Assembly: GCA_017305665.1 (NCBI GenBank)
Contig: JAFKKH010000017.1
Span: forward strand, 62,001-126,000
Length of the DNA: 64,000 nt
From: Hyphomicrobiales bacterium
GTDB lineage: Bacteria; Pseudomonadota; Alphaproteobacteria; Rhizobiales; Xanthobacteraceae
Direction: 5' to 3'
The stretch's first letter is position 1; the number at the start of each line of letters is the position of its first letter. The notes beneath the pieces were generated by a model. That model had not been told where the DNA came from and did not search any database. It saw nothing but the letters and a program-made list of their open reading frames with translations. Positions 35 to 17,222 of the stretch are shown one piece after another. Made by a program: the position numbers and the translations under genes.

Positions 35-49
35 TTTGATATTCACAAT
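35..49 (+). promoter_or_regulatory. Shared operator-like element, copy 1 (before deacetylase 1)
   Basis: The 15-mer TTTGATATTCACAAT has the form TTTG-N7-CAAT and is followed by TAAAT. It ends 28 bp before the ATG of the deacetylase-fold gene at 78. It matches the elements at 2640, 9101, 9117, 13458 and 17208 in the same orientation relative to its gene. TTGATA inside it could serve as a -35 box; no convincing -10 was found. Binding by a regulator is inferred. Confidence 0.6.
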
Positions 50-77
50 TAAATGACTCCATGCTCCTGGGGGCCGG

Positions 78-980
78 ATGAACCCAAACGATAGCGTTTT
101 CCACGAGAATACGACCGTGGTGTCGCGGCCGCCTCTGACTTGGCCGAACGGATGCCGGCTCGCTTTCGCCGCCGTCGTGAGCGTCGAATACTATGAGCTC
201 CAGCCTCCTCCCGGCGCCTTCATCCCACCCAATGTGCCCGGAGGCTTTGGACGAGCACCGTATCCCGACGTTCGCGCCTTTTCCCAGAGAGAGTATGGCA
301 ACCGCGTTGGCGTCTTCAGAGTGATCGACGCATTCGACAAGTCCGGCTTATCGGCAACGGCTGCCGTGGACGCTTCCAGTGCCCGACGCTATCCGTATCT
401 GGTCCGCCAGTTCCGCGAACGCCGCTGGCCCATTATTGGTCACGGCTACAGCGTCACCCAAGTCATCTCGAACAACATGACGGTCGAGCAGGAGCGTGAG
501 TATCTTCGTGACTCGCTTGCGCAGGTGGAGAGCCAAGCAGGTACGCGCCTAAAGGGCTGGCACGGTCCGGAGTATGGAGAGTCCGAGTGGACGCCAGCCC
601 TCCTCGCAGAGCTTGGAGTCAATTATCTGCTCGATTGGCCTAACGACGAACAACCCTACGTCATGCGCACCCCGTCGGGTCCGATCATTTCGCTACCGAT
701 AGCACTGGAGCTTGATGACGTCGTCGCTCACTACCACCGTCGTATTAGCATGAAGCGCTGGAAACAAGCCGTTCTGGATGCAGTTGATCAGTTATCGAAC
801 GATGGTACGCAGAGCGGTCGACTTCTTATCTTGAATCTTCATCCTTGGCTCATTGGTCATCCGCATCGGATTGGCTATCTGGAAGAGCTCCTGGCGGAGA
901 TCGCGAGTCGAAAAGACGTCTGGAAAGCGACAACGGAGCAATTGGTCGATCACTATTGCGCCGTCAGTCAATCCAACTAA
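78..980 (+). CDS. PuuE-like polysaccharide deacetylase-fold protein 1
   Basis: This 300-residue protein reads as a member of the polysaccharide deacetylase (NodB fold) superfamily, closest in layout to PuuE-type allantoinases and related cyclic-amide hydrolases rather than to chitin or peptidoglycan deacetylases. Seen: a WPNG entry near residue 22, a VVSVEYYE strand (33-40) where NodB enzymes carry the metal-binding Asp-Asp pair, and GHG at 121-123 on the second catalytic strand. There is no signal peptide, so it is probably cytoplasmic. It is a paralogue of the protein at 9186-10139, sharing the WP-G, YYEL-PPP, R-E-G-RVG and GHG positions. The ATG at 78 follows a G-rich stretch and the shared operator-like element. 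It converges on the amidase at 1032-2546. Substrate unknown; hydrolysis of a cyclic amide or imide is an inference from PuuE relatives and the amidase neighbours. Confidence 0.8.
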   Translation: MNPNDSVFHENTTVVSRPPLTWPNGCRLAFAAVVSVEYYELQPPPGAFIPPNVPGGFGRAPYPDVRAFSQREYGNRVGVFRVIDAFDKSGLSATAAVDASSARRYPYLVRQFRERRWPIIGHGYSVTQVISNNMTVEQEREYLRDSLAQVESQAGTRLKGWHGPEYGESEWTPALLAELGVNYLLDWPNDEQPYVMRTPSGPIISLPIALELDDVVAHYHRRISMKRWKQAVLDAVDQLSNDGTQSGRLLILNLHPWLIGHPHRIGYLEELLAEIASRKDVWKATTEQLVDHYCAVSQSN

Positions 981-1031
981 GACGCTCCAGCCGATCAGAA
1001 GACCCCAGCGATACCCTACCGTCTGAAAGAT

Positions 1032-2546
1032 CTAAAGCGAACGCCAATCGCAGGCTTGTTCGAATGCATGAGCCGCGCGGTAGATCATGGCCTCCTGCCA
1101 CTCAGAACCGATCAGCATCATTCCGACTGGCAATCCATTGATCAGACCACACGGCACTGTCATCGCGGGATGATGCGAGGCGTTGAAGCAACACGTGTTG
1201 ACCATAACCTCCGCCGATTCCCGCAGGACTCTCTCACGGTGACCCTCGCCCTCCGGCAAAACGGGGGCCGTAAATGGCACTGTCGGCATCAGCAAGAGAT
1301 CAACACTCTCAAAAGCCCGATCGTAAGCTCTTTTGAGTTGGCGCGTGAGATTCTGGGCTTTTCCGTAGAACTCTCCGTGAAAATGGTCGCGAATGTATCT
1401 TCCGACCGTCAGGATCACCTTTACGGTATCAGGCAGTTCCTGCGCCTTCGCACGCAGATTGACCAATGCTCCGCCTAGCCCTGCGATGTGCAGTCCCCGC
1501 TGCCCGAAGCCTGAACCACAGTCCTCGAAGGCAAGTGCATACGTTCCTTCCAACGACAGGGCGCGCCAAATGATGGGAGCTTGCAGATGCATGGGAATGG
1601 ATATCTCTCTGACCTGAGCACCGAGCCGTTCAAACAAAGCTGCGCCGTCGCGCACCTTTTGGTCCACTTCAGGCATCGATTGAGGATGGCCGAAACCTTC
1701 CTGCACGATTCCAATTCTTAGACCTGCTACCCCTTGTCCGATGGCCTTCGAATACGCATCGGTTTTTGGTCCATATTGGCGCGGATCGAGATCATCCTGG
1801 CCAGCGACCACCTCGAGCAGAAGCGCATTGTCGGCGACTGTCGCAGTCATCGGCCCCAGATGTTCCAAAGTTGGCTCCATGCTGAGAACACCTGTATAGG
1901 GGACCAGACCATGTGTCGGCTTCATTCCGTATATGCCGCAATGAGCAGCAGGAATTCGGATCGATCCTGCCTGGTCGCCACCAATCGCCATGTCGACTTC
2001 TCCCGTCGACACGACAACCGTGCAACCGGACGAAGATCCGCCACTCGAGTGCGCCGTATTCCATGGATTTCTGACGGGGCCGCGAGCTGAGGTGTTGCTT
2101 CCGCTGGATACGCAAAAGCATTCACAATGCACATTGCCGACGATTAACCCGCCCGCGTCGAGAATGCGCGTCACAACGGTCGCGTCATCCCTGGGGACAA
2201 ATCCCTCAAGAACGGTCGTACCGTTCATCATCGGCACGCCCGCCATGCCGATGTTGTCCTTGAGGGCGATCATTTTCCCAAAGAGCTTTCCGCTTCGTTC
2301 GCCGGCGATAAACGTCTTGCGGTGCCAAGCACCGAACGGATTATCGCTCAGACTCGGCTCATAGCCGGCTGACCGCGGATAGAGGACTGGCGCTATCTCC
2401 AGTTCAATCTGATCAAGCGCACGATAAGTCCCGAGAGTTCGCTTGAGAGCCTGGAATAGCAGCGCGGTATCGTCTTCCGACGTCAATGCGATTCCAACAG
2501 CTTCCGCAGCAGCTGCAAGTGCGTCTAACGTCGGTTCTTCGATCAT
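1032..2546 (-). CDS. Amidase-signature hydrolase 1
   Basis: This 504-residue protein belongs to the amidase signature family, which hydrolyses carboxamides through a Ser-cisSer-Lys triad. The triad is visible: Lys96 in MIALKDN, cis-Ser171 in GGSSSG and nucleophile Ser195 in GGDQAGSIRIP. Length is normal for the family and there is no signal peptide, so it is cytoplasmic. The ATG at 2546 has AGGAG seven bases upstream. It is the last minus-strand gene of a run that includes the ABC importer and a second amidase, but a 213-base gap carrying its own shared element (2640-2654) suggests an independent promoter. It is not a GatA candidate by context, since gatB and gatC are absent. Substrate not determinable; a catabolic amide is inferred. 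Confidence 0.9.
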   Translation of the reverse strand: MIEEPTLDALAAAAEAVGIALTSEDDTALLFQALKRTLGTYRALDQIELEIAPVLYPRSAGYEPSLSDNPFGAWHRKTFIAGERSGKLFGKMIALKDNIGMAGVPMMNGTTVLEGFVPRDDATVVTRILDAGGLIVGNVHCECFCVSSGSNTSARGPVRNPWNTAHSSGGSSSGCTVVVSTGEVDMAIGGDQAGSIRIPAAHCGIYGMKPTHGLVPYTGVLSMEPTLEHLGPMTATVADNALLLEVVAGQDDLDPRQYGPKTDAYSKAIGQGVAGLRIGIVQEGFGHPQSMPEVDQKVRDGAALFERLGAQVREISIPMHLQAPIIWRALSLEGTYALAFEDCGSGFGQRGLHIAGLGGALVNLRAKAQELPDTVKVILTVGRYIRDHFHGEFYGKAQNLTRQLKRAYDRAFESVDLLLMPTVPFTAPVLPEGEGHRERVLRESAEVMVNTCCFNASHHPAMTVPCGLINGLPVGMMLIGSEWQEAMIYRAAHAFEQACDWRSL

Positions 2547-2639: not shown

Positions 2640-2654
2640 ATTGTGAAAAACAAT
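2640..2654 (-). promoter_or_regulatory. Shared operator-like element, copy 2 (before amidase 1)
   Basis: Plus-strand ATTGTGAAAAACAAT is ATTG-N7-CAAT with perfect 4-bp arms. Read toward the amidase it is ATTGTTTTTCACAAT followed by TAAT, the same orientation as the other copies. It lies 94 bp upstream of the ATG at 2546. TTGTTT inside it may be a -35 box. Regulator binding is inferred. Confidence 0.65.
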
Positions 2655-2759: not shown

Positions 2760-3578
2760 CTAGCTAACTGATCTCGCTCGATCGACCGCGCGCTTGGATG
2801 CAGCAAGGGCTTGTTCCGCCCAGGACGTTGGTCCGAGTCCGGCAAGGCGGGTGCTGTTCGGCACCTCCACGCCAATAGGAATGTCGGTGGGCAGCCGCGA
2901 CAAAATGCCTTGGATATCCACATCTCCTTCTCCGGGCATCAATCGCTCGTACCGCGCGGATTGCATCATTGCTTCCGGAGTTACGTTTCCAAGGTTCTTG
3001 CCGTCACAGATTTGCACCGATCGGATCATGCTCGGCGGGATTGCGCTCAAGTCATCGAGCGTGGTTTTCGACCTCGCTACATGCAAGGTATCGACGAGGA
3101 TTTTTGCGTTGGATAAGCCAACGCCCTTGACGACTGTGTGCGCGGTACGTGCATCCGGAACCGTGGTCCAAGGCATAAATTCAAGCTGGATATCGAGACG
3201 GTAAGGAGCCGCCAATTCGCATAGCCCACCCAACCTATCCGTTAGCCGCAACTTGTCTCCATCATCGGCAATCACCAGAACAGCAGCCGCGCCCAACATG
3301 GCCGCGACCTCCATGAACCGCTTATATTGCCTTACCTCGAAGTCTGCACCGATCCTGACAACCTCAACATCGAAGATCTCGATGCCCGTCGCTCTCATAC
3401 GTGAGATGGTCTCCTTTAGCAGAGCAACGTTTCCGAGCAGAGCGTTCGGCTCATTCGGCCCCGTCGTCGTTAAGCGAGCGCCGATTGATTCAAAGCCCAC
3501 GCGTCTCGCGAGTTGAACCATATCTGGAGCTTGCATCGGAGCAGTCGTGAGATACGACAACGAGTATTTGTCAGCCAT
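2760..3578 (-). CDS. Sugar phosphate isomerase/epimerase-like TIM-barrel protein
   Basis: This 272-residue protein has the layout of the xylose-isomerase-like TIM barrel (AP endonuclease family 2) superfamily, whose members isomerise or epimerise small hydroxy-carbonyl compounds using a divalent metal. Candidate metal ligands are the Glu in LEFMPW (about residue 150), the Asp and His in LVDTLH (about 185-190) and the C-terminal Glu in IGVEVPN. There is no signal peptide. It sits 64 bases downstream of amidase 2 on the same strand and is probably in the same operon as the ABC transporter. In the pathway it may act on a ring-opened or deamidated intermediate, which is inference. The exact reaction cannot be read from sequence. 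Confidence 0.75.
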   Translation of the reverse strand: MADKYSLSYLTTAPMQAPDMVQLARRVGFESIGARLTTTGPNEPNALLGNVALLKETISRMRATGIEIFDVEVVRIGADFEVRQYKRFMEVAAMLGAAAVLVIADDGDKLRLTDRLGGLCELAAPYRLDIQLEFMPWTTVPDARTAHTVVKGVGLSNAKILVDTLHVARSKTTLDDLSAIPPSMIRSVQICDGKNLGNVTPEAMMQSARYERLMPGEGDVDIQGILSRLPTDIPIGVEVPNSTRLAGLGPTSWAEQALAASKRAVDRARSVS

Positions 3579-3642
3579 GATTTTCGCCGATGAAAGAGGA
3601 TGCGGTCTTTAGGACGGTTCTCCCGGACACATCGGGAGCGCA

Positions 3643-5085
3643 TCAGCAGAGCGTCACCTTTATCCGTTCTCCAAGGATTGAGAACAGAGTCAGGCCGATC
3701 TGCAGGAGCTTGATATCTTTCCCGCGCGGAGCATACAGCGTTACGCCGAAGGGAGCGCCATCGGCACCTTTTCCAATTGGAATCGCCAGAGCCGGCGCAC
3801 CAGCTTTTCCAGTGCACTTCGCAGCCGCCGCCATGGGAGTCATAAGGACATCAACGTCGCCGAGCTTCGTTGCCGCATCGATGCCCGCCCGCCGTGCCAG
3901 GTAGATATCGCGGCGGCGGTCCAGCCGATATTGCCTATCCTGAAGCCCGCCAGTCGCTTGAGCAGCGAGCAATAACGATTGCCCATATGGAATCGCATCC
4001 GGATGCCTCTCGTTCCACGCAATCAGGCTCTGCAGAGAGTCGATCCCGCATGGAGACTCGTTCTCAATCAAGAACGCGTCAATGGCAGCCTTGAACTCGG
4101 TTCGAAACACTGATGATCGAACGTCTTGCAACTGTTCGGCCGCCGGCAGATCACAGGGGTCAACGATCGTTACACCCGACTTGCGGAGTTCATCTATCGC
4201 GGCGTGAAATGCAGCCATCGCATCAACGAAATCGGGACGATCGGCCATTGCTCGACGGGGAATCCCGACGCGTATTTGCCTTGGCGGCAGAGGCTCCAAC
4301 TGGGCTGGAATATCGTGCAAGCACTCGAGTCCCAACGTGTCAGCGGTGTCCGCGCCGGCTATCGCAGAGAGAACGAGCACGAGGTCTTCGACCGTCCGCG
4401 CAAGCGGCCCGGGTGAGTCCTGGCTAGGCACCAGGGGTATAATGCCAGCCCGGCTGACGAGACCCGTGCTGGGCTTGAATCCGACAATCGATGACGCCAA
4501 GGCAGGCGATTGGATCGAGTTTTGCGTCTCGCTGCCAATGGCAAAGGGAGCAAGCGAAGCTGCCACAGACGCCGCAGACCCCACACTCGAGCCCAAACCT
4601 CGGCCATATTCCTCGCCGGTCAGCGGGTTCTTGACGCGCCCACCCGCACCGCTAAAGCCCGAGGGCATGACGTCCGACACGTAGTCAGCAAATTCTGTCA
4701 GATTGGTCTTTCCGAGTACGAGAGCGCCTGCCGCTCGGAGCCGCTTTACAATCGTAGCCTCTCGCATTGGTTTGAAGTCCGCCAGCGCTGCAACGCCCGC
4801 GCTCGCCCTCAAACCATCCGCGGTCATAATATTGTCCTTCAACAGCACAGGTATGCCGTGAAGAGGCCCTCGAGGCCGCCCTGCAGCAAACTCCTCATCA
4901 AGACGAACGGCCTCTCGCTCGATATCCGGAGCGAGCTCGCGAACAGCGTTTAGTTTGATCCCGGCTCTATCGACCGCGCCGATCCGCGCAACATAGAACG
5001 CAGCAATCTCCCGGATGCTCACTTTGCGCGCACGGATCGCATTCGACAGATCGCCGATCGTTCCATTCAGTAACAGATCGTTCAT
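3643..5085 (-). CDS. Amidase-signature hydrolase 2
   Basis: From the ATG at 5085 this is a 480-residue amidase-signature enzyme. The triad is present: Lys83 in VLLKDN, cis-Ser166 in LGSSVGS and nucleophile Ser190 in GSETQNSIQSP. The usual GTETDGSI is changed to GSETQNSI, so the specificity loop differs from both GatA and amidase 1. A TTG at 5130 would add 15 residues; the ATG is preferred because it has AGGG about ten bases upstream and gives a family-like N-terminus. It lies 117 bases downstream of the last ABC gene, same strand, and upstream of the TIM-barrel gene. A role in hydrolysing an imported amide or a ring-opening product is inferred from this linkage. Confidence 0.9.
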   Translation of the reverse strand: MNDLLLNGTIGDLSNAIRARKVSIREIAAFYVARIGAVDRAGIKLNAVRELAPDIEREAVRLDEEFAAGRPRGPLHGIPVLLKDNIMTADGLRASAGVAALADFKPMREATIVKRLRAAGALVLGKTNLTEFADYVSDVMPSGFSGAGGRVKNPLTGEEYGRGLGSSVGSAASVAASLAPFAIGSETQNSIQSPALASSIVGFKPSTGLVSRAGIIPLVPSQDSPGPLARTVEDLVLVLSAIAGADTADTLGLECLHDIPAQLEPLPPRQIRVGIPRRAMADRPDFVDAMAAFHAAIDELRKSGVTIVDPCDLPAAEQLQDVRSSVFRTEFKAAIDAFLIENESPCGIDSLQSLIAWNERHPDAIPYGQSLLLAAQATGGLQDRQYRLDRRRDIYLARRAGIDAATKLGDVDVLMTPMAAAAKCTGKAGAPALAIPIGKGADGAPFGVTLYAPRGKDIKLLQIGLTLFSILGERIKVTLC

Positions 5086-5202
5086 GTCGGTCGGCCCTAG
5101 CTCTGTGAGCGCTGTGAACTCAAGTTTCAAACGGCCCCATGGGAGCAGTTGTTAGGATCAGAAATGAAATGGGGTGCCCTCGCCTTGATGGTCGCCGGCC
5201 GC

Positions 5203-6069
5203 TCATCGCATTGCGGCAACAGCGGAAGGCAGTTCGGTAACGGCCTCGGAATCGCATCTGCGGGATTCGTCCAGCCAATCTTTCTCCACCACAGGCAAGG
5301 GAACTGCGCGCAACAGCTTCTTCGTGTAGTCGTTGCGAGGATCGTTAAAAACCCTCGTACACTCTCCGGCCTCGACCACCCGACCGTGCTGCATCACGAC
5401 GACATCGTCGCAGAGCGTTCGCACAACGGAGAGATCGTGGCTTATGAAGACCATGCCAAGGGAGTTTTCGGCACGCAGTTGCCGGAGCAGCGCGAGAACC
5501 TGCGCTTGTACCGATACGTCCAATCCTGACACGATTTCGTCGGCCACGATGTAGCTCGGCTCGAGTGCGATGGCTCGCGCGATTCCAATCCGCTGGCGCT
5601 GACCGCCGGAGAGCTGATGCGGATAGCGGTCACCGTGGGCCGGCCGCATGCCGACCCGCTCCAGCAAGGCGAGCGCCTTGTTTCGTGCGTCACTTCGGCT
5701 TGCTCGCCCATTGGCCACGAACGGATCCGCCAAAATATCGATGATCTTTCGTCGCGGGTTCAGCGAGGACTGCGAATCCTGGAAGATCATCTGGATTTTG
5801 AAGCGAGCTTCTCGCAGTTCCTCCTTCGAGAGCGAGGCGAGATCCTTGCCTTCGAGCATCACCTTTCCCGTGACCGGACGGTAAAGACCCAACAACGAGC
5901 GGCCTATCGTGCTCTTGCCGGAGCCTGACTCGCCAACAATGCCAACCACTTTCCCGCGCTGGACGGTCAGATCAACATTCTGGATGATTTTCAGCAGCGG
6001 CGCGCGGCCAAACAGCGACTTCTGGCTACGATCGGGCAACGCGATCGAAACATTGATCGCTTCAAGCAT
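5203..6069 (-). CDS. Oligopeptide/dipeptide-type ABC transporter ATPase (OppF/DppF-like)
   Basis: This 288-residue ATPase energises import with the permeases encoded upstream. Seen in order: Walker A GESGSGKST (46-54), Q-loop, signature LSGGQRQR, Walker B YIVADE with the following D-loop, and a short C-terminal extension. The ATG at 6069 overlaps the end of the preceding ATPase gene by eight bases; a longer frame to 6162 would run back into that gene and is rejected. The order permease-permease-ATPase-ATPase matches Opp/Dpp importers. The substrate is likely a small polar molecule and need not be a peptide. The binding protein is not adjacent and is probably the one at 14389-15924. Confidence 0.92.
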   Translation of the reverse strand: MLEAINVSIALPDRSQKSLFGRAPLLKIIQNVDLTVQRGKVVGIVGESGSGKSTIGRSLLGLYRPVTGKVMLEGKDLASLSKEELREARFKIQMIFQDSQSSLNPRRKIIDILADPFVANGRASRSDARNKALALLERVGMRPAHGDRYPHQLSGGQRQRIGIARAIALEPSYIVADEIVSGLDVSVQAQVLALLRQLRAENSLGMVFISHDLSVVRTLCDDVVVMQHGRVVEAGECTRVFNDPRNDYTKKLLRAVPLPVVEKDWLDESRRCDSEAVTELPSAVAAMR

Positions 6070-6946
6070 GGCTCTGCTCCAGATCAGATGCCACTGCATC
6101 GTTCCACAAACTAGCCGTAAGTTCACCTGGTACCGGTTGTAGTCCGGCATCCGGCCGATCAAGACGGGGGGAAGCCGCTATCAACGCTTGAGTATAGGGA
6201 TGGGCTGGACGTCCAATGACGTCTTCCGTTCGGCCTTGTTCAAGAATGCGTCCGGCAAATATGACAGATACCACATCGCAAATCTTGGCGACCACGCCGA
6301 GGTCATGCGTGACGAATAGAACAGCCGTGCCTGTCTTGGCTTGCAACTCTTTGATGAGCTTTAGGATCTCGAATTGGACAGTGACATCCAGCGCTGTTGT
6401 CGGCTCATCGGCCACAATCAGGGATGGTTTCCCGGCGAATGCAATCGCGATCACCACGCGTTGACACATTCCTCCCGACAATTCGTGGGGATATTGGCGA
6501 AGCACCCGCTCGGGTGCGCGAATGTGGACCATGCTCAGGAGTTCGAGAGCATAGTCACGCGCGCTCTTCCTATCGTAACCTAAACGCCGCGTCAGCACGT
6601 CGGTGATCTGGTTTTCAATGCGGAGAACCGGGTTAAGCGCCGTGCTGGGTTGCTGCAGGATCATTGCGATTTTCGTTCCGAGCAACAGACGGCGGTTCTT
6701 CGCAGGCAGCTCAAGCAAATTCTGCTCTTGGAACAAGATGCGTCCCGACGACACCACTGCGCTGCTTGGAAGCAATCCCGTGATGGCTTTGCCGACCATC
6801 GTCTTTCCACCGCCGGATTCTCCCACCAGCCCTCTGATCTCGCCGGGTTTGATCTCAAGGTTCACACCACGCAGAATCCGCGTGGCATGCTTTCCCGTTC
6901 CGATCTCCACACCGAGATCTGACACTTGAAGAAGCGCTTTGCTCAT
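6062..6946 (-). CDS. Oligopeptide/dipeptide-type ABC transporter ATPase (OppD/DppD-like)
   Basis: From the ATG at 6946 the protein is 294 residues long and begins SKALLQVSDLGVEIG, as expected for an ABC ATPase. It has Walker A GESGGGKT, signature LSGGMCQR, Walker B LIVADEPTTALD and the switch His in FVTHDLG. The signature carries Cys where Gln is usual, a minor change. The start overlaps the stop of the upstream permease gene by four bases (ATGA), so translation is likely coupled. It pairs with the OppF-like subunit as the second half of a heterodimeric ATPase, which is typical of nickel/peptide/opine importers. Confidence 0.92.
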   Translation of the reverse strand: MSKALLQVSDLGVEIGTGKHATRILRGVNLEIKPGEIRGLVGESGGGKTMVGKAITGLLPSSAVVSSGRILFQEQNLLELPAKNRRLLLGTKIAMILQQPSTALNPVLRIENQITDVLTRRLGYDRKSARDYALELLSMVHIRAPERVLRQYPHELSGGMCQRVVIAIAFAGKPSLIVADEPTTALDVTVQFEILKLIKELQAKTGTAVLFVTHDLGVVAKICDVVSVIFAGRILEQGRTEDVIGRPAHPYTQALIAASPRLDRPDAGLQPVPGELTASLWNDAVASDLEQSHA

Positions 6947-7794
6947 CGGCGAATAACCGGATCGAGCGCCAACCGAAGTCCATCGGCAAGCAGACTGAGC
7001 GTTAGGACCGATAGCGTGATGGCAAAGATGGGCAGAGTCATGATCCACCATGCCTGATATATGTAGTTCCTTCCGTCTGCTAAAATTCCGCCCCATGTGG
7101 CCATGTCGCTGGTGCTGAACCCGATGAACGCGAGGATGGCCTCAACGACGATCGCGCGACCCATTTCCAGAGCCAGAAGTGCCAACACCATTGGAATGAT
7201 ATTGGGCAGCAGTTCCTGGAACAGGATTCGGAACCAGCGGTAGCCCAACAGATGCGCTGCCGTTATGAAATCCTGTTCGCGCAGAACCAGAACCTCGGCG
7301 CGAACGACGCGCGCAAATCGCGTCCATCCGATCAGGGCGATCGAAATGACGACGGCATAGAGTCCCGGACCGACGACGGCGACAAGCACAATCGCCAGCA
7401 ACATGGGCGGAAAGGCCATGAAAACCTCGATGATGCGACTGAGGACTGCGTCCGATCCGCCTCCCAAATAGCCAGACACCAGCCCGACGATCACGCCAAC
7501 CACGCCTGAAAGCGCAGCTCCCAAAACCATTACGATCAACACAGGACGCGCGCCCCATACCAGCCGCGAAAGCAGATCGCGACCCAAGCTATCCGTTCCG
7601 AGGAGATACGACGCGTCATGGCCTGGCAGCCAAAATGGCGGAAGATTCTGCGCAAAGAGGCTTTGATCGAGCGGGTCTTGAAGCGGCAGCAGAGGCGCTG
7701 CGAGCGCGATCGCCGCGATGATCGCCAACCCCAGACCGCCAATCAACAATTTCGGATTGGCAAAGGCGGTATCCACGTATCGGGTGAGATTCAT
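6943..7794 (-). CDS. ABC transporter permease (OppC/DppC-like)
   Basis: This 283-residue inner-membrane protein has a first transmembrane segment near residues 18-38, a periplasmic stretch with the GTDSLGRD motif characteristic of OppC/DppC, and about five further hydrophobic segments with the EAA-type loop RVVRAEVLVLREQDFITAA. The ATG at 7794 overlaps the last base of the upstream permease stop (TGATG); a TTG three bases earlier is possible. It is downstream of the DppB-like gene and upstream of two ATPases in one operon. Substrate specificity is set mainly by the binding protein, so it cannot be read here. Confidence 0.92.
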   Translation of the reverse strand: MNLTRYVDTAFANPKLLIGGLGLAIIAAIALAAPLLPLQDPLDQSLFAQNLPPFWLPGHDASYLLGTDSLGRDLLSRLVWGARPVLIVMVLGAALSGVVGVIVGLVSGYLGGGSDAVLSRIIEVFMAFPPMLLAIVLVAVVGPGLYAVVISIALIGWTRFARVVRAEVLVLREQDFITAAHLLGYRWFRILFQELLPNIIPMVLALLALEMGRAIVVEAILAFIGFSTSDMATWGGILADGRNYIYQAWWIMTLPIFAITLSVLTLSLLADGLRLALDPVIRR

Positions 7795-9115: not shown

Positions 9116-9116
9116 A

Positions 9117-9185: not shown

Positions 9186-10139
9186 GTGCTGCAGTACAGC
9201 TACAGGCCGCAGTTTCCTGAAACTGCCCGCCAGCGACGGGATATCGACCAGGCATGGATCGACTATCTTCCAATCACGGAGCGACCGCCGCTGACATGGC
9301 CAGGCGGCGCTCGTATTGCCGTGATGGTTTGTCCAAATGTCCTATACTACGAACTGATGCCGCCCCCCGATCCGTGGATCAATCCGTGGGCTCGCATGAC
9401 CCCGGATGTGATGATGTATGGACGGCAGGAGTTCGGCGCGCGCGTCGGATTCTGGAGAATGGTTGATGTGCTCGACAAGTATAATTTGCCCTGCACAGCC
9501 GTTCTGAATGTCGCCGCGCTCGCGAAATTTCCGGAGATCCGCAACGCGCTCATCGAACGCAGATGGGATATCCTCGGACACGGCATGCACAATACGCGCT
9601 TTATCTGCGGGTACGGCGAGGAACAGGAACGTCAGTATTATCGGGACATGCGGCGGATTGTGCTCGACGAAACAGGTGTCGACATGAGGGGCATGGGTGG
9701 ACCGGGTCCTCAAGCTGCCACCGAGAACACTCCCGATCTGCTGGCCGAAGAGGGGTTCTGGTACTACAGCGATTTCTTTCACGATGACCAGCCCTTCCCC
9801 ATTCGGGTGCGCTCGAACAGATTGATCTCGATGCCTTACTCAGTTGAGACCAACGACGTTCCCGTGTTTGCGACTGCTTACGAGGCTGACGACTTTGCCG
9901 ACCTGGTGAAAAGGCAGTTTGACCGGCTTTACGCGGAGGGCGGCCGCACAATGTGCTTCACGATCCACCCCGCACTCATCGGCCAGGCCCAACGAGCAAA
10001 ATACCTTGAAGTGGCGCTGCAATATCTAACGTCTCGATCAGACGTGTGGTTCGCTACCGGAAGGGAAATAGCCGACTACTACCTGACCCACTGCTATGCT
10101 TCGGTCGTGAACCATCTGTCGACTTGGCAAAACGCCTAA
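9186..10139 (+). CDS. PuuE-like polysaccharide deacetylase-fold protein 2
   Basis: From the GTG at 9186 this is a 317-residue protein. The start is chosen because AGGAG lies seven bases upstream; an ATG at 9144 has no such site. It is a paralogue of the protein at 78-980: WPGG (39-42), the strand MVCPNVLYYEL replacing the usual Asp-Asp motif, the PPPDPW stretch, and GHG at 131-133. No signal peptide. It is transcribed divergently from the importer operon and upstream of the MarR gene. The N-terminal extension of about 30 residues is absent in paralogue 1. A hydrolase of a cyclic amide or imide is the best guess from PuuE-like relatives. Two copies in one regulon suggest either heteromeric assembly or two successive substrates. 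Confidence 0.8.
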   Translation: MLQYSYRPQFPETARQRRDIDQAWIDYLPITERPPLTWPGGARIAVMVCPNVLYYELMPPPDPWINPWARMTPDVMMYGRQEFGARVGFWRMVDVLDKYNLPCTAVLNVAALAKFPEIRNALIERRWDILGHGMHNTRFICGYGEEQERQYYRDMRRIVLDETGVDMRGMGGPGPQAATENTPDLLAEEGFWYYSDFFHDDQPFPIRVRSNRLISMPYSVETNDVPVFATAYEADDFADLVKRQFDRLYAEGGRTMCFTIHPALIGQAQRAKYLEVALQYLTSRSDVWFATGREIADYYLTHCYASVVNHLSTWQNA

Positions 10140-10308: not shown

Positions 10309-10809
10309 ATGGCCCTCAAAACTAAACCTCGAGAGGGGGCTGACAACATCCGCTTGGAATTATCAGAACGCTCCTTCTATCGATTTTCCCTCCTCGCCGG
10401 CCAAATCAACAAAGCCATCGGTCGCGCCTACGTAAGGCGCTATGGTCGTCCGGCCCACGGGTGGAGAGTTCTTACAGTCCTCGGAAACTTTGGTCCTTTA
10501 TCCGCGACTGAGATTACGCATCATAACACTCTCGAAATCGACAAGGTTACGCGCATTGTCGATAGCCTGGTGGAACAGGGCCTTGTTACCCGGCAACAGG
10601 ATAGCGAAGATCGTCGAAGGGTCATCGTTGCTCTCACCGCCAAGGGCAAGCGCATCTACGTCCAGATTGAAGAGATGATCGGTCAGATGGAGCACGAGTT
10701 CTTGATCGTTCTTTCGAACCAGGAGCGCGAGATCCTCTACGATATCCTGGAGCGATTGAAGCAGCGCGGCGACCAGGTATTTCGGACAGCGGCCCGTTGG
10801 GCCACTTAA
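10309..10809 (+). CDS. MarR family transcriptional regulator
   Basis: From the ATG at 10309 this is a 166-residue winged-helix protein of the MarR family. Seen: an N-terminal dimerisation helix, recognition-helix region around ATEITHHNTLEIDKVTRIVDSLVEQGLV, and the wing DSEDRRRVIVALTAKG with the conserved D-DRR. MarR proteins bind short palindromes as dimers and release DNA on ligand binding. It is the only regulator in the first 17 kb and sits inside the cluster, so it is the best candidate to bind the shared NTTG-N7-CAAN elements, although none was found in its own 169-base upstream gap. An alternative start at 10213 would add 32 residues that do not look family-like. Confidence 0.88.
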   Translation: MALKTKPREGADNIRLELSERSFYRFSLLAGQINKAIGRAYVRRYGRPAHGWRVLTVLGNFGPLSATEITHHNTLEIDKVTRIVDSLVEQGLVTRQQDSEDRRRVIVALTAKGKRIYVQIEEMIGQMEHEFLIVLSNQEREILYDILERLKQRGDQVFRTAARWAT

Positions 10810-10861: not shown

Positions 10862-12088
10862 TTATCGAGAGGCGACAAAGCTCTTTAGCGGAATTGATGT
10901 GTCAGTCGCCCGATCAACCGGTACTAGAGCATCGGCAGCTATAAGCTTCCGGGCGGCCATATGGTCGGCAGGTTTGTTGACGGATTCGACGACTTTGAGC
11001 CGACCGTCGCGATCATATCCAAGTATCGAGAATGCGCGGTCAGCAACGTCGCCGCGCGCTACGAATGTGTCGCAGTTCGACCAAATGCCGGCAATTTGCA
11101 GCTTAAGATCCGATTGGTCGCTCCAGAACCAAGGCACCGCATCATAGTTTCCTTTCTTTCCGGTCAAACGACGCGCAACAGTCTTGGCTTGGTCGAGAGC
11201 ATTTTGCACGCACTCCAGGCGAGCAAGTCCTCCTGGCACGAATTTGTTGGGGTGCCGTGTGCAGTCGCCGACTGCCGAAATGGAATCGTCCGCCGTCAGC
11301 AGATCGATATCGACAATAATCCCGTTATCGCAGGGCAAGCCTGCCTCAATCGCCAGGCCGTCTTCTGCTGTCGTTCCGATGCCCGCAACCGCGAGGTCTG
11401 CCGGCATTACAAGGCCATCGGACAGTCGGAGTTCAAGCTCGGAGCCGTTCGATCGAATGCCAACAACGGTCCTGGAGAGGCTGATATTGACTCCCATCCT
11501 TCGGTGCTCGACCTCGAAGAACGACGACATCAACGGGCTCACGCTCCGAGCCAGGAGGCGATCACTTTGTTCGACGACGTGAGCTTCACAGCCCATCTGC
11601 AAGGCGACCGCGGCGAACTCCAAACCGATAAAGCCGGCCCCGATGATCGCTATCCTCTCTGCCCGTGTCAGACGAGCGCGCAACGCTTCCGCGTCCCGCA
11701 AACTTCCGAGATAATTTATTTCAGCGCCGTCCGTTGCGAACGGCAACCGCCGCTGGCGAGATCCTGTCGCAAGAATAAGATGTCCGTACGACAGCGTTTC
11801 CCCGGTTTCGAGACATAGGGCCTTTGCATGTCTATCGATGCGGATCGCTTTCCCGTGATGAAGCTTGATATCTCGCTGCGCGTAAAATCCCTCTCCGCGA
11901 AGCACCAGCCCATCCGCCTCCACCTCGCCCTTCATGAAGGCCTTGGACAAAGGCGGGCGTTGATACGGAAGGTTCTGCTCGCCATTTACGAGCAGAACCG
12001 GTCCGTCGAAGCCCTCATCTCTGAGAGCTGCGGCCGCGCCCACACCGGCATGACCCGCTCCTAAAATTACAACCGGTTCGGCGGCCAT
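10862..12088 (-). CDS. FAD-dependent ferredoxin reductase (Rieske oxygenase electron-transfer partner)
   Basis: This 408-residue protein passes electrons from NAD(P)H to a ferredoxin. It has two dinucleotide-binding folds: VVILGAGHAGVGAA at the N-terminus for FAD and IAIIGAGFIGLE in the middle for NAD(P)H, plus RPPLSKAF and the C-terminal ISAVGDC typical of the BphA4/ThcD-type oxygenase-coupled reductases. It has no [2Fe-2S] domain of its own. The ATG at 12088 is chosen; a GTG at 12103 overlaps the last base of the Rieske gene stop. It is directly downstream of the Rieske oxygenase gene and cotranscribed. No ferredoxin gene is visible in the island, so the intermediate carrier must come from elsewhere or be bypassed. 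Confidence 0.9.
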   Translation of the reverse strand: MAAEPVVILGAGHAGVGAAAALRDEGFDGPVLLVNGEQNLPYQRPPLSKAFMKGEVEADGLVLRGEGFYAQRDIKLHHGKAIRIDRHAKALCLETGETLSYGHLILATGSRQRRLPFATDGAEINYLGSLRDAEALRARLTRAERIAIIGAGFIGLEFAAVALQMGCEAHVVEQSDRLLARSVSPLMSSFFEVEHRRMGVNISLSRTVVGIRSNGSELELRLSDGLVMPADLAVAGIGTTAEDGLAIEAGLPCDNGIIVDIDLLTADDSISAVGDCTRHPNKFVPGGLARLECVQNALDQAKTVARRLTGKKGNYDAVPWFWSDQSDLKLQIAGIWSNCDTFVARGDVADRAFSILGYDRDGRLKVVESVNKPADHMAARKLIAADALVPVDRATDTSIPLKSFVASR

Positions 12089-12102
12089 CGCTGCCCGCAG
12101 CA

Positions 12103-13413
12103 CTATTGAGCCATGACTGCATTCGCGGTCGACAAATGCCGCTCATCGACACCCAAGGACCGCTCGTAATCCTCCTGCGCCTTCACGACCGCCTGCCAAG
12201 GCTTATCTGCTGAAAGATTGAATGAACAAGCACGCTGGTTGTAGTCGAGCGAGGGATCCTGACCCGGCAACGGCTTTCCTTCATCCATTTCCTTGAGCTT
12301 CTGCAACAGGAGCTTACGATAGAACATCACCGCCTTATCGCTGGTCCCGAGATGCTCCTTCGTGCGATCGACGATGGGCAGCATGCTTTCTTGGACAACA
12401 CGATCCTGAACCGCAGCACCGGATACCCCTGAGAAATTGCCGCGCTTCATTCTCTCGCGGTCCTGCAAGTGCATGTTGGCCAGACTATGCGGCGTTTTGT
12501 ATTCCGGTGGCGAGGTCAGGTGACCCCAGTTCGAATACGCGGCCTCCTTATCGATCGGCTTTTCAAGGTCAAAATGAACGTAGAAGGTATAACAGTTGTG
12601 ATCGTCGATGGGATGCCATGCCTTGAACAACCTGGACTCCCGCGGGCCGGTCGCAATGTAGCAATAGAATGGCGCGATCCACTCAGTTGAACGGACATAG
12701 TGCACGTCCGGCTTCTCGGTGTTGCGAACCGCACCAACACGCATGAGGTATGGCGTCTCTTCGCAATGGATGACTGGCGCGCCGTCCGACATCAGATGGG
12801 CAATCGACTCCCAACCCGCACCGGCCCAACTTTCCTTGTCCTCGAGATCGAAATCTCGATGCAGATAGTTCGGATGCGCCGGGTCCAAATCACCTTCGAC
12901 GCCCTGCAAGTAATTGCTCGCCTGGTGCATCTTCACAACAAGCAGCTGGCTCTCGGGAAGATTCAGCCAGGGAAATTTCGGGAAGGGAGGCTCAAGCTCC
13001 GGCGGCCCCATATACGCCCAAAGAAGCTGCCCGGCTTCCCGAACTGGATAAGAGACGTGCTGCAATTTTTTGGCGAAGGTTCGCGTTGGCGGCTCAGGCG
13101 GAGATTCCAGCACGTAGCCACAACCCATCTTCCAACCGTGATAGAGGCACCGAAGGCCATCCTCTTCGTTTCGGCCATACACCAGTGATGCTCCGCGATG
13201 CGGACAGTATTCACCGATGAGACCGACCTTCCCATTCGGATCGCGGAACGCAACCAAGGCCTCACCCAACAGCTTCACCCGAATTGGTGCACCGCCCGGC
13301 TCAGCAATTTGCTCCAGCTTGGCGGCAGGAATCCAATACCGCCGCATGAAGCGGCCCATAGGAGTTTCAGGGCCCACCTGCGTGAGCGCCATATTGTCTT
13401 CATGTCTCAGCAT
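12103..13413 (-). CDS. Rieske non-heme iron oxygenase, alpha subunit (phthalate dioxygenase-like)
   Basis: This 436-residue oxygenase resembles the phthalate 4,5-dioxygenase/phenoxybenzoate dioxygenase branch, which acts as homo-oligomers without a beta subunit. The Rieske cluster ligands are Cys70, His72, Cys89 and His92. The mononuclear iron site has His180 and His185 with the bridging Asp175 or Asp177 in GDLDPAH. The N-terminus (LRHEDNMALTQVGPETPMG) is typical of the group. ATG at 13413 with GGAGG upstream. Its reductase partner follows directly. The promoter (13443-13471) overlaps the most symmetrical shared element. Likely chemistry is hydroxylation or oxidative demethylation/ring attack on an aromatic or heterocyclic substrate; the substrate is unknown. 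Confidence 0.92.
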   Translation of the reverse strand: MLRHEDNMALTQVGPETPMGRFMRRYWIPAAKLEQIAEPGGAPIRVKLLGEALVAFRDPNGKVGLIGEYCPHRGASLVYGRNEEDGLRCLYHGWKMGCGYVLESPPEPPTRTFAKKLQHVSYPVREAGQLLWAYMGPPELEPPFPKFPWLNLPESQLLVVKMHQASNYLQGVEGDLDPAHPNYLHRDFDLEDKESWAGAGWESIAHLMSDGAPVIHCEETPYLMRVGAVRNTEKPDVHYVRSTEWIAPFYCYIATGPRESRLFKAWHPIDDHNCYTFYVHFDLEKPIDKEAAYSNWGHLTSPPEYKTPHSLANMHLQDRERMKRGNFSGVSGAAVQDRVVQESMLPIVDRTKEHLGTSDKAVMFYRKLLLQKLKEMDEGKPLPGQDPSLDYNQRACSFNLSADKPWQAVVKAQEDYERSLGVDERHLSTANAVMAQ

Positions 13414-13442: not shown

Positions 13443-13471
13443 GATATAATCATTTTAATTGCGAAACACAA
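13443..13471 (-). promoter_or_regulatory. Sigma70-like promoter for Rieske oxygenase operon
   Basis: On the minus strand TTGTGT (13471-13466) and TATATC (13448-13443) are exactly 17 bases apart. The -35 lies inside operator-like copy 4, the same geometry as at 9086-9114. The ATG follows about 30 bases after the -10. Confidence 0.55.
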
Positions 13472-13474
13472 TTA
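13456..13474 (-). promoter_or_regulatory. Shared operator-like element, copy 4 (before Rieske operon)
   Basis: TAATTG-N7-CAATTA is a perfect 6-bp inverted repeat and the most symmetrical copy; the core is 13458-13472. Read toward the gene: ATTGTGTTTCGCAAT followed by TAAAA. It covers the -35 and part of the spacer of the Rieske promoter. Confidence 0.7.
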
Positions 13475-13815: not shown

Positions 13816-14346
13816 TCAACTGGCCAGCCTTCGATAGGCCCCGTCGAAGTACAAAAGCGGATCCCTCTGCTTCACGCAGGTATCGATAACTCGACCCACG
13901 AAAATCGTGTGTGTATGCACATCAAGTCTCGATTCCAGTTCGCATAACACGTACGCAATGGCATCCGACAAAACTGGCGTTCTGCCATTGATCAGCCTGT
14001 GTGGCGCCGATTCGAACGGGTTTAGCTTTTTCGACGCGAACAGATCCGCCAAATCCTCTTGGGCCGCTCCCAATACATTCACGGAAAACGCACAACTCCC
14101 TTCCAGAAAGGCGTGCGTCCTGGACGTTTTATTGAGAATAACCAATAGAGTCGGCGGATCTGCGCTGGCGCTGCATATTGCCGTTGCGGTCATCCCGTGC
14201 AACCCGTCAGGACCCGCAACGCCAACCACGCAGACCGCACCAGCCAGTTTCCTCATCACTCCTTTGAACGTTGAGCTGTCGACGCCTTGCGAGTCGCTCT
14301 GAATACGCATGTTCAGGACGCGTCCCTCTGTTCGCTCGATTGCCAT
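13816..14346 (-). CDS. Flavin reductase (FMN/FAD-binding split-barrel, RutF/HpaC-like)
   Basis: This 176-residue protein has the flavin reductase-like split barrel: TFKGVMRKLAGAVCVVGV, GLHGMTATAICSASADPPTLLVILN and the later FSVNVLGAAQEDLADLFA. Such enzymes supply reduced FMN to a partner monooxygenase, here most likely the LLM enzyme at 16034-17155 in the same minus-strand run. It is 42 bases downstream of the binding-protein gene. The ATG at 14346 is immediately preceded by an 18-bp perfect palindrome and has no Shine-Dalgarno site; a start at 14310 is possible. The LLM plus reductase pairing recalls RutA/RutF uracil ring opening, but RutB-E equivalents are not all present. Confidence 0.88.
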   Translation of the reverse strand: MAIERTEGRVLNMRIQSDSQGVDSSTFKGVMRKLAGAVCVVGVAGPDGLHGMTATAICSASADPPTLLVILNKTSRTHAFLEGSCAFSVNVLGAAQEDLADLFASKKLNPFESAPHRLINGRTPVLSDAIAYVLCELESRLDVHTHTIFVGRVIDTCVKQRDPLLYFDGAYRRLAS

Positions 14347-14364
14347 GTTGACTGATCAGTCAAC
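14347..14364. promoter_or_regulatory. 18-bp perfect palindrome abutting a start codon
   Basis: GTTGACTGATCAGTCAAC is identical to its reverse complement and ends exactly at the base before the ATG at 14346, occupying the place of the ribosome-binding site. It has no loop, so it is more like a protein-binding site (the TGACTGATCAGTCA core resembles TetR-type operators) than a hairpin. No TetR gene is in the window. Confidence 0.55.
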
Positions 14365-14388
14365 GCTTCGCCGTTAGAGTTCGCCGCT

Positions 14389-15924
14389 TTACGCCATGGA
14401 AAACAGAGAGGGCATCACATATCCCGCCACATGCGGCGTGAACTTCAGCGTCGGCTTGTAGACGACCGGTTGGTAGTACTGAAAGAGAGGGATGATGTAG
14501 GCATTGTCGGACACGGTCTGATCGATCGCTTTGTACTGCGCGAGCCGCTTCTCCTCATCCTTCTGTACAAATGCTGCCTTCAATGCGTCGTCCAGCTGGC
14601 CGCCCTTCCATGAGGAGTGAGCACTGGCGGAGATCATGGCTGTACCAAGCGAGCTTTCCGGATCAGCGGTTGAATTCCCCCAGTCATAGAATGCTGCCGG
14701 CGCCAGCTTGTGCTGTGCACGCAATTCGAAGTGCTTCGCAATCTCATAGACTTCGATGTTCGCGTGGATACCGACCTTTCTCCACATCTGGACGATCGCC
14801 TGAACGATCTCGTAATCTTTCGGTTTATAACCCTTCGTGGTCTGTATCGTCAGCTCGACGGGCTTGCTTGGCGAATAGCCGGACTTGGCAAGCAACTCAC
14901 CAGCCTTTGCGGGATCGAACGGAGTATAGATCGACGGATCGAAGCCCTTGTATTCGGGAGCCAGCAACGTCCCAAGCGGCTTTGCATATCCGCGCAGCAG
15001 ACGTTCAACGATCGCCTTCTTGTCGATTGCAAAGACCGCAGCCCGTCGCACGTTCTCATCGGCAAACGCGCCCTCGTTGTTTACGAAAATTAGAGCGACG
15101 TCGGCGATCGGATAACAACTGCCCGCAAGCCCGCGACTTTTTAGCCGTTCGTATTCCTCATATGGAACATCGGCCGTTGCATCGGCACTTCCGCGCTCAA
15201 GCTCGGCGACCCTGCTGGGTGGATCGGTGACGAATTTGAAAACAACCGTCTCAAACTCCGGGCGAGGACCCCAATAGTCGCTGAATTTCTTCAAACGGAG
15301 GAACGATCCGCGTTCATACGTATCGAACATGTATGGGCCGGTTCCGATCGGCTTCTTCTCGAAGCCCTCGGCACCCACCTTCTCGTAGTATTTCTTCGGA
15401 AGAAGATAGCAACCGAGGAACGTGAGGCGCTCGAGCATGTTTGCACGCCAAGGCGACACATCGAACGTGATGGTATTGCCGTTGACAACAAAGTTCTTGT
15501 TACTCGCAAAGATGGGGGCAAGCGGCGCCTTGGGATCGGTAAGTCGCTTCAAATTCCAAAGCACATCATCGATCGTTACGGTTTCGCCGTCGTGCCATTT
15601 CACTCCCGCGCGAAGCGTCAACGATATCTTCGATTTGTCGTCGTTCCAGCCAAACTTCTCGATCACACCCGGACTGAGCGTCAAATCGGGATTTTGGGTA
15701 ATATACGGGTCATAGATGGTTCGAAAGATGGACTGATTTCCCGGACTCGTTGTCTGCGGACCTGTGTTGGGGTCGAAGGCCGCCGGCGCTGCCGGGTAAG
15801 CGATCGTCAGAACATCGCCCGGAGCGGACTTGGCCGCCTCGCCGAATAAAGCAAAATCACTTCCGGCCGCCAGCGTGGACAAGCCGGCAAGCTGCAATAG
15901 AGAACGTCGTGACAGATTGCTCAT
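14389..15924 (-). CDS. ABC transporter substrate-binding protein, family 5 (Opp/Dpp type), TAT-exported
   Basis: This 511-residue periplasmic binding protein has a twin-arginine leader (NLSRRSLLQLAGLSTLAAG) and family-5 layout: LTIAYPAAPAAFDPNTGPQ at the mature N-terminus, LTLRAGVKWHDGETVTIDDV and a C-terminal domain closing at FTPHVAGYVMP. Length is normal. GGAGG lies before the ATG at 15924. It is 109 bases downstream of the LLM monooxygenase gene, same strand. Although separated by 5.6 kb from the permease/ATPase genes at 5.2-8.8 kb, it is the only family-5 binding protein here and very likely feeds that importer. Family-5 proteins bind peptides, opines, nickel chelates and various amide compounds. 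Confidence 0.92.
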   Translation of the reverse strand: MSNLSRRSLLQLAGLSTLAAGSDFALFGEAAKSAPGDVLTIAYPAAPAAFDPNTGPQTTSPGNQSIFRTIYDPYITQNPDLTLSPGVIEKFGWNDDKSKISLTLRAGVKWHDGETVTIDDVLWNLKRLTDPKAPLAPIFASNKNFVVNGNTITFDVSPWRANMLERLTFLGCYLLPKKYYEKVGAEGFEKKPIGTGPYMFDTYERGSFLRLKKFSDYWGPRPEFETVVFKFVTDPPSRVAELERGSADATADVPYEEYERLKSRGLAGSCYPIADVALIFVNNEGAFADENVRRAAVFAIDKKAIVERLLRGYAKPLGTLLAPEYKGFDPSIYTPFDPAKAGELLAKSGYSPSKPVELTIQTTKGYKPKDYEIVQAIVQMWRKVGIHANIEVYEIAKHFELRAQHKLAPAAFYDWGNSTADPESSLGTAMISASAHSSWKGGQLDDALKAAFVQKDEEKRLAQYKAIDQTVSDNAYIIPLFQYYQPVVYKPTLKFTPHVAGYVMPSLFSMA

Positions 15925-16033
15925 GTTGGGCCTCCTCCTGTACTCCCCGATCCTCTGGCTGGGATCGTGCGTGAGTGATCTACGAAAGCAAAACGGCTAG
16001 GTCGGCTACGAAGCTTCTCCGACGTCGATCGGA

Positions 16034-17155
16034 CTACTGGGCACGCAATCCCTTCCTGGCAAGACGTGGCAAAACCTCTTGAACGAAGAACGGCATTTCC
16101 TCGAGGTAATTCACGAACGAGATTGCGACTCCGTCAAAACCCGCATTCGACAGTTGGGCGAGTTGCTCCGCCACGTCATCGGGAGATCCGCACAGAGAGT
16201 AGCTCCCACCGTAGCCAAGCACGGCTCTGACCTGCTGTTGATGACGGACATACTCAGTCTCCGCGGATGAACGGGTCTTCGAACCAAATGCGCCGGTATA
16301 CAGCCGGTACTGCTCATCCAACGCTTCCCAATCGGCATTTTCGACGCAGTGCATTGCGTATTGCTGGGCCAACTCACGCGTTCCCCTGCACACAACCGAC
16401 GCCGGGATCCATACGTTGATATTGCGTCCGGCAGCCTGCGCCAGAGCCTTGGTTTCAGCGATGCGGCCGCGGCTCTCTTCGGGAGTTCGGCAGTAATCGA
16501 AATGCAAATCGACGTTGCGGATTGCGAAATCGCGCCCCGTTTCGGACGCTCCAGCGCTCATTGTTATGGGAGCGACACCGCCGTACGGAGCCGGCTCTCC
16601 GGTCAACTTCTTAAGATCAAAAAATTCGCTGGTGTAATCTTGTGGCTCTTTGGCAGCCCATAGCGACTTCACGACATTGAACCAGTCTTCGCCGTACTTG
16701 TAGCGCAGGTCGTGCGCGAGAGCTTCAACGCCGAACATATCGAATTCGCTTTTATTCCAGCCGCAAACGATATTGAGGCCAAATCGACCGTGGCCGATAT
16801 GATCTGCCGTCACCATCTGCTTCGCGGCAAAAACGGGATGAACCATCGGCACGTGCACCGTCCCGAAGACAGTAATCCTGCTGGTCTTCGCCAGCAGACC
16901 GGTCGCCCAGGTCAGTGTTTCCCAGGATTTCGAATTGACGTTCGAGGCGCCGCCAAAGCCGCTCCAGCGGGCAATCGGCACCATGCACTCGAAACCGACC
17001 TGGTCGGCGAGCATGGCGAGCCGCTCGTTCCCCTCCCAACTTCCGTTCCATCGCTCGGGAAGCTTGGTAAAGGCCAATCCTCCACTGCAGTTTGCTCCGA
17101 ACAGACCAAGCTTCAGCTTGTTGCCGCCGAGCAAACCCGGATTGCGCTCCACCAT
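16034..17155 (-). CDS. LLM-class flavin-dependent monooxygenase (RutA/SsuD-like)
   Basis: From the ATG at 17155 this is a 373-residue bacterial luciferase-like (LLM) enzyme. Seen: KLGLFGANCSGG at the barrel start, RWSGFGG, TVFGTVHVPMVHP, and GRFGLNIVCGWNKSEFDMFG, a hallmark of the RutA/SsuD/SfnG branch that uses FMNH2 and O2 for oxidative cleavage. No signal peptide. The partner reductase is probably 13816-14346. A frame extending to a TTG at 17221 would overlap the shared operator-like element and is rejected; the ATG has GAGGGG upstream. First gene of the operon LLM - binding protein - flavin reductase. Substrate unknown; oxidative ring opening or C-N/C-S cleavage is the plausible chemistry. 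Confidence 0.9.
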   Translation of the reverse strand: MVERNPGLLGGNKLKLGLFGANCSGGLAFTKLPERWNGSWEGNERLAMLADQVGFECMVPIARWSGFGGASNVNSKSWETLTWATGLLAKTSRITVFGTVHVPMVHPVFAAKQMVTADHIGHGRFGLNIVCGWNKSEFDMFGVEALAHDLRYKYGEDWFNVVKSLWAAKEPQDYTSEFFDLKKLTGEPAPYGGVAPITMSAGASETGRDFAIRNVDLHFDYCRTPEESRGRIAETKALAQAAGRNINVWIPASVVCRGTRELAQQYAMHCVENADWEALDEQYRLYTGAFGSKTRSSAETEYVRHQQQVRAVLGYGGSYSLCGSPDDVAEQLAQLSNAGFDGVAISFVNYLEEMPFFVQEVLPRLARKGLRAQ

Positions 17156-17192
17156 CTCGCCCCTCACCTGTCGGCTCTGTTCATTGCCAGGA

Positions 17193-17222
17193 TATCTATA
17201 TTTTTTATTTGGGAAACGCAAT
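17193..17222 (-). promoter_or_regulatory. Shared operator-like element, copy 5, with promoter of LLM operon
   Basis: The core at 17208-17222 reads ATTGCGTTTCCCAAA toward the gene, followed by TAAAAAATA. On the minus strand TTGCGT (17221-17216) and TAGATA (17198-17193) are 17 bases apart. The geometry repeats copies 3a and 4. The -10 match is modest. Confidence 0.55.

Follow-up and report, generated by a model that had tools for sequence, protein, structure and literature searches.

Does a single short palindrome that recurs in front of the genes of a bacterial catabolic island mark one regulon and, if so, which protein reads it? The question arises at the left end of the window, which is the whole 64,000-nucleotide stretch that was analyzed, where an initial annotation had noted one operator-like element at every major transcription unit and had proposed that a MarR protein binds it. 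Judged from sequence comparisons, the regulon is real, is conserved and belongs to a known kind, and the assignment of a predicted binder from the MarR family is well supported. As described below, the element is conserved in clusters from other genera, and its best genome-wide matches gather in the island, as the claim of one regulon would lead one to expect.

The palindromic element and its genes

The genes of the island are listed here; the transcription units were drawn from strand and spacing.

78..980, plus strand: PuuE-like polysaccharide-deacetylase-fold hydrolase, below the allantoinase cut-off
1032..2546, minus strand: amidase, with family profile matches
2760..8816, minus strand: oppBCDF importer, amidase and xylose-isomerase-like gene, probably one operon from strand and spacing
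9144..10139, plus strand: second PuuE-like hydrolase, whose start may be GTG 9186
10309..10809, plus strand: MarR1, the best candidate binder (Pfam MarR E 1.1e-12; orthologues and sites)
10862..13413, minus strand: Rieske oxygenase (LigXa_C) and ferredoxin reductase
13816..17155, minus strand: LLM monooxygenase, substrate-binding protein and flavin reductase

The allantoinase model matches both PuuE-like proteins (78-980 and 9144-10139) with scores far below its cut-off; they are possibly cyclic amide or imide hydrolases. Because PuuE-like hydrolases, amidases, cyclase-family (PF04199) and TauD genes are present here and in relatives, our guess is that the pathway breaks down a cyclic amide, an imide or an N-heteroaromatic compound.

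The sites found at these genes, including some that lie upstream of the window, are as follows. L001 is a locus of the same genome (G000, contig C6) that reaches upstream of the window.

35..49, plus strand: operator 1, upstream of the deacetylase-like gene at 78
2640..2654, minus strand: operator 2, 94 bp upstream of the amidase gene (1032-2546)
9101..9115, minus strand: operator 3a, member of a tandem pair with a 16-bp pitch, facing the oppBCDF importer operon
9117..9131, plus strand: operator 3b, in the same 16-bp pair as 3a, facing the second deacetylase-like gene with marR behind it
13458..13472, minus strand: operator 4, upstream of the Rieske oxygenase, with a site at the same gene in five more genomes, one of them weak
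17208..17222, minus strand: operator 5, upstream of the LLM monooxygenase
17229..17243, minus strand: additional operator, missed initially, at a 21-bp pitch to operator 5
17518..17532, no strand assigned: additional intergenic site, missed initially, about 300 bp from the closest gene starts
L001:17830 and 17846, outside the window: upstream site and its partner, in front of a substrate-binding-protein gene
L001:11905, outside the window: upstream site in front of a short-chain dehydrogenase

All six sequences named in the initial annotation (operators 1 to 5) lie where it placed them, and each matches, imperfectly, the same 15-bp palindrome, WTTGTGA-N-TCACAAW. When 30 sites from this genome and its relatives, chosen by us and oriented by hand, are aligned, the palindrome extends to TA-WTTGTRA-W-TYACAAW-TA. 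TTG and CAA are nearly invariant, a T stands second before the core in 25 of the 30 sites, and of the two bases that follow the core the first is T in 22/30 and the second A in 23/30. This alignment omits window sites 14131, 15496 and 17518, L044:896 and 4010, L052:5469 and L041:2223, as well as the L001:15793/15809 pair, L001:17846 and every L035 and L036 site. The flank CAAWTAAA that had been noticed initially makes up one side of the extended, symmetric palindrome. Since the core is palindromic and TA occurs on both flanks, the statement that all of the copies have the same orientation relative to their genes carries little weight.

That the element is present at every major unit is borne out, as each transcription unit in window 1-17,200 has a site, and the regulon continues beyond the window, about 6 kb further upstream. 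Two sites within genes, at 14131 (flavin reductase reading frame) and 15496 (substrate-binding-protein gene), are probably due to chance. The site at 17518-17532 has the LLM gene on one side and, as named by eye, a galE-like gene on the other.

The initial claims about promoter geometry fared less well. Four of the six sites have the proposed distance of 28-95 bp to the gene start; copy 3b, however, lies 13 bp before ATG 9144 (about 55 bp before GTG 9186, which AAGGAG precedes, if the GTG is the start), and copy 3a, which had been excepted, is 285 bp from oppB. Over all of the sites the distance spans about 10 to 300 bp, a range that rests on crude gene calling and its ORF starts. Of three promoters said to share a 17-base spacer, the one at 9086-9114 is good (TTGTAA-N17-TATAGT) and the one at 13443-13471 is fair (TTGTGT-N17-TATATC), but the third, TTGCGT-N17-TAGATA at 17193-17222, has 3/6 matches to TATAAT. 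A -10-like hexamer with at least four matches is present at that spacing in 2/30 sites, relatives included, and a joint promoter offset scan of 25 sites gave no dominant register; a shared -35/-10 geometry was thus rejected. Two window operators do overlap a -35-like hexamer, and in three related loci (L044, L047 and L050) the Rieske operator is inside the spacer of TTTAC(A/T)-N17-TATATT. An operator on the -35 box or in the spacer would block RNA polymerase, and therefore repression is favored.

Distribution of the element in this genome and its relatives

In the window, the bare form TTG-N7-CAA occurs 23 times versus 12.4 expected (1 of 100 shuffles reaches 23), and WTTGTGANTCACAAW with up to three mismatches occurs 11 times versus 4.4 expected (none of 100 shuffles reaches 11). 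Across the 5.03-Mb genome, WTTGTGANTCACAAW is found at 14 places when two mismatches are allowed, five of them in the cluster, and the backwards pattern at two. The nine places outside the cluster have the TA flank on neither side; four of them are within stop-to-stop frames of more than 400 codons, and the best-scoring one (C43, 21.0 bits) is at the start of a CxxCH reading frame, judged by eye. The 19-mer TWWTTGYRAWTYRCAAWWA, at up to three mismatches, has 30 places in the 5.03 Mb, compared to eight for the backwards pattern. Fourteen of the 30 are located in 23.6 kb (C6:55.9-79.5 kb), including one intragenic place (window 14131), and at up to two mismatches 6/7 are located there. The 19-mer was tuned on these and related sites and therefore the held-out test described below weighs more.

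Genome-wide matches would ideally be confined to the cluster, and this is partly the case; the best ones concentrate in the island, but loose matches also occur in genomes that lack MarR1. For example, the 15-mer with up to two mismatches has 4-31 places in 14 other genomes, nine of which lack all of the MarR proteins returned by the search of the family genomes. Among the matches listed, the 19-mer with up to three mismatches has 3-31 places in 15 other genomes, with up to 25 in genomes without MarR1 and 2-16 for the backward controls. Because the MarR1-less genomes give similar counts, we rejected consensus-only counts over whole genomes as proof of specificity. Two genomes of the same genus, G403 and G444, have WTTGTGANTCACAAW with up to two mismatches at 31 and 29 places, versus four and three for the backwards pattern, and a family-genome search found no MarR1 in either of them. 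An unrelated repeat or another regulator may account for this excess.

MarR1 orthologues with at least 60% identity are present in three of the 390 other genomes of the family (G401, G398 and G388), and MarR relatives of about 40% identity are present in two further ones (G435 and G735). An alignment-based scan of named genomes added orthologues from two MAGs, one of Rhodospirillales and one of Alphaproteobacteria, and from a Roseiarcaceae isolate, which has two copies; a contig scan with a single-protein query found no relative. Plasmids gave no match to MarR1 (E 1e-20) or to the Rieske protein (E 1e-100). In a class draw (1/385) and an order-wide draw (1/397), the only genome with a close MarR1 orthologue was this genome itself. 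Close MarR1 orthologues (at least 60%) and Rieske orthologues co-occur in the same 4/391 family genomes.

The held-out test used a matrix built from the six window sites. It gives 20 matches of at least 15 bits in 140,074 bases from seven MarR1-orthologue loci in six other genomes, versus one match in 400,000 bases of control DNA (20 arbitrary stretches that we picked, all from G000, G401, G398 and G388). Some control stretches come from contigs with known consensus matches, which could only raise the control count. Another 16 MarR-like genes were found in this genome; around eight of them (26,370 bases) the matrix has no match, and column-permuted palindromic matrices have a mean of 0.6 matches, with 2/1000 reaching 20. 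The element is also recovered de novo in the relatives' loci with the window excluded (L041 and L042 were taken in as well), where TTGT-N5-ACAA ranks 1/4352 among palindromic dyads (17 versus 0.89 expected); the dyad is absent from 220 kb of control DNA.

The sites are thus conserved in related clusters from other genera. A copy at the Rieske oxygenase promoter is present in 6/6 genomes, 40 to 98 bp ahead of a start codon that we placed, and the flanking DNA has diverged; the copy in G388 is weak (12.2 bits). The G388 copy is on a different contig from MarR1. A good site in G388 lies on contig C420, flanked by a cyclase-family gene on one side and the beginning of a substrate-binding-protein gene on the other. 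The MarR1 contig of G388 (L051, 18.5 kb) has no site of at least 13 bits and a single 19-mer place, with four mismatches. The motif and the MarR gene could travel together via inheritance of whole clusters, although the flanks have diverged.

MarR proteins and tandem operators

MarR1 contains a MarR winged-helix domain (PF01047, 48.1 bits versus a cut-off of 24.6), and its closest solved structure by sequence profile is PDB 2fa5 (E 4.5e-26), an entry titled as a transcriptional regulator of the marR/emrR family. Its best NCBIfam match is HpaR (TIGR02337, E 2.7e-14); the score of 53.1 bits versus a cut-off of 121.2 led us to reject MarR1 as an HpaR. The segment DK(V/I)TR(I/L)VD, which we take to be the recognition helix, is retained in all eight MarR1 orthologues.

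A site directly adjoins MarR1 in L044, L043, L050, L052 and L053, and no site directly adjoins it in L047 or L051. In L052 and L053 the site is between MarR1 and a TauD dioxygenase gene; no relative of the window Rieske gene is present at either locus, and the L053 deacetylase relative is only a distant one (34% identity). The sites, that is, track the MarR orthologue even where the neighboring genes differ. A palindromic promoter site linked to the regulator gene is consistent with the membership of MarR1 in the MarR family.

A second paralogue is encoded about 12 kb upstream of MarR1.

L001:15899-16450 = G000:C6:59899-60450 (window about -2101 to -1550), outside the window: MarR2

MarR2 is 37% identical to MarR1 and is divergent from an operon for a benzoate-dioxygenase-like Rieske dioxygenase that is far below the benA cut-off. 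The long palindromic element between MarR2 and this operon reads as two degenerate operators 16 bp apart (L001:15793/15809). In one half of each, TCG replaces TTG; the matrix gives one of the two 8.1 bits, and the other is missing from the matches of at least 7 bits. In G435, the sole match in the searches for MarR1 and MarR2 is MarR2-like (44% identical to MarR2 and 40% to MarR1), and a tandem pair of the motif is present there. A tree of the MarR1/MarR2-type proteins is weakly supported. The motif is linked to MarR1, to MarR2 and to the MarR2-like protein of G435, and by this linkage it belongs to the MarR1/MarR2 subfamily, with MarR1 as the best single predicted binder. Accordingly, the proposal that the MarR protein at 10309-10809 is the best candidate stands in that it is a strong one, but it is not exclusive because MarR2 is linked to the same motif. 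With two motif-linked paralogues, either may be the binder at a given promoter, and both proteins likely use the operators jointly.

The 16-bp distance recurs. For the 40 strong sites from the island and 11 related loci, there are 17 close pairs, i.e., a second site (up to five mismatches) 10-60 bp away. The pitch is exactly 16 bp in nine of them and 21 bp in two, and any other distance occurs at most once. When flanks were shuffled, 0/500 shuffles reached the 16-bp count (13 incidences versus 0.12 expected). At least four of the nine 16-bp pairs are between divergent genes. Presumably, the 16-bp pairs hold two dimers about 1.5 turns apart, which probably cooperate.

The conserved palindrome is present at all of the gene groups and beside related MarR genes, and so a small repressor family likely turns the pathway on together. 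That the element is the operator of a small MarR repressor subfamily, which would switch the whole pathway jointly, is in our view quite probable. We infer the following course of events. A MarR dimer would dock on TA-WTTGTRA-W-TYACAAW-TA with one winged helix per WTTG half-site. At a site on or beside the promoter, the bound protein would keep RNA polymerase off until a pathway substrate or intermediate binds the MarR protein and releases it from the DNA. The importer, the hydrolases, the Rieske oxygenase and the LLM monooxygenase would then be expressed together. MarR1 would be the main candidate for this role, and MarR2 would probably read this operator or one much like it. Where two operators are 16 bp apart, as at some promoters, including several divergent ones, they would probably hold two side-by-side dimers, which could make the switch sharper.

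Other explanations have to be weighed against joint repression by the two paralogues. The operators might be bound mainly or only by MarR2, or the promoters might be split between both MarR proteins, an explanation that overlaps with the preferred one. The pair between MarR2 and its divergent Rieske dioxygenase operon would suggest this, as would the tandem pair in G435, where the only match is MarR2-like. However, L044, L043, L047 and L050 carry MarR1 with the motif, the MarR2 search, which covered G401 and G398, returned the MarR1 gene itself as the best match in both, and the operators beside MarR2 are the degenerate ones; on balance we regard this explanation as unlikely. Even less probable is that the MarR proteins activate some of the promoters from an element next to the -35 box or farther upstream. 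Some MarR proteins are activators according to the cited part of the CouR report (PMC4737184), and the distances of about 10 to 300 bp together with the lack of a promoter geometry common to the sites would allow for it, but the Rieske operators between TTTAC(A/T) and TATATT in three loci are in a repressing position and two window operators overlap a -35-like hexamer.

It is hardly credible that AT-rich promoter DNA in a GC-rich genome has simply given look-alike palindromes. Enrichment of the bare TTG-N7-CAA in the window is just twofold, and each of the genomes searched has some loose consensus matches, but the held-out result (20 in 140 kb versus one in 400 kb), the permuted-matrix controls, the de novo recovery of the dyad and the fixed 16-bp pitch all argue against chance. 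A CRP/FNR- or Rex-type regulator that uses TTGTGA half-sites might also bind the element. The half-sites of CRP resemble TTGTGA/TCACAA, and CRP operators space them wider, like TTGTGAAW4TTCACAA. Rex half-sites resemble them as well, but in the passage cited the Rex operator is TTGTGAAW4TTCACAA (PMC2883068), whereas one central base separates the half-sites here. The motif occurs once in 400 kb of arbitrary stretches, yet it is beside MarR1 in differing clusters, and such a regulator is very unlikely.

Comparison with known systems

MarR proteins bind palindromes as dimers, are frequently autoregulatory and are often released by early pathway intermediates, as summarized in the cited part of PMC5487221. 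The closest known operator, as far as the cited sources extend, is that of CouR from Rhodococcus jostii RHA1, a MarR repressor that controls a catabolic cluster and has been shown to bind its box, ATTGA-N5-TCAAT. This box is present at four promoters, over predicted -35 boxes, and the ligand is p-coumaroyl-CoA (excerpted from PMC4737184). Like the CouR system, the regulon described here has 15-bp inverted repeats at several catabolic promoters, and the spacing within them is again TTG-N7-CAA. Unlike the CouR box as given in that excerpt, the half-site in the 30 aligned sites is mostly WTTGTRA and not ATTGA, and the inner bases TRA/TYA, the TA flanks, the two paralogues and the 16-bp tandem pairs are further differences.

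DesR from Sphingobium sp. SYK-6, in the part of the report cited, is a repressor of the MarR type whose 15-bp inverted repeats are found at desB and ligM. It binds upstream of two catabolic genes and also of its own gene, the repeat IR-M overlaps the -35 region, and the ligands are vanillate and syringate (PMC6888825). The DesR repeat quoted there, GTTTGTGT(C/A)ACATAC, differs from the present element, with which it has the 15-bp inverted-repeat length in common (PMC6888825). By analogy, the regulon would work like the CouR and DesR systems. The open-access literature, covered by titles and abstract openings, returned no description of this regulon, operator or pathway.

The fixed tandem pitch together with shared paralogues is an unusual feature of a regulon that is otherwise of a known kind. 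A more tentative idea, which we find possible but put below an even chance, is that this MarR subfamily has a fixed two-dimer operator code. Palindromes repeated at 16 bp, often between divergent genes, and two co-resident paralogues would merge two catabolic modules into one switch, and the pitch would be kept across clusters whose MarR proteins are about 40% identical. The results tie one particular regulator subfamily to one particular operator and to an uncharacterized catabolic cluster that is rare. From this link between regulator and operator one could work toward the ligand and the pathway and toward a usable biosensor, and the rigid 16-bp pitch is a testable structural prediction for two MarR dimers on DNA.

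Two of the more distant clusters display features of their own. The MarR2-like cluster of G435 (L035:10184-13360) is near integrase- and recombinase-like reading frames (named by eye), which suggests a mobile island. In G735, a 40%-identical MarR is near TTG-N7-CAA palindromes that have other inner bases, ATTGCAATATGCAAT (L036:11977 and 19232), and 16-bp partners; these palindromes are a possible specificity variant.
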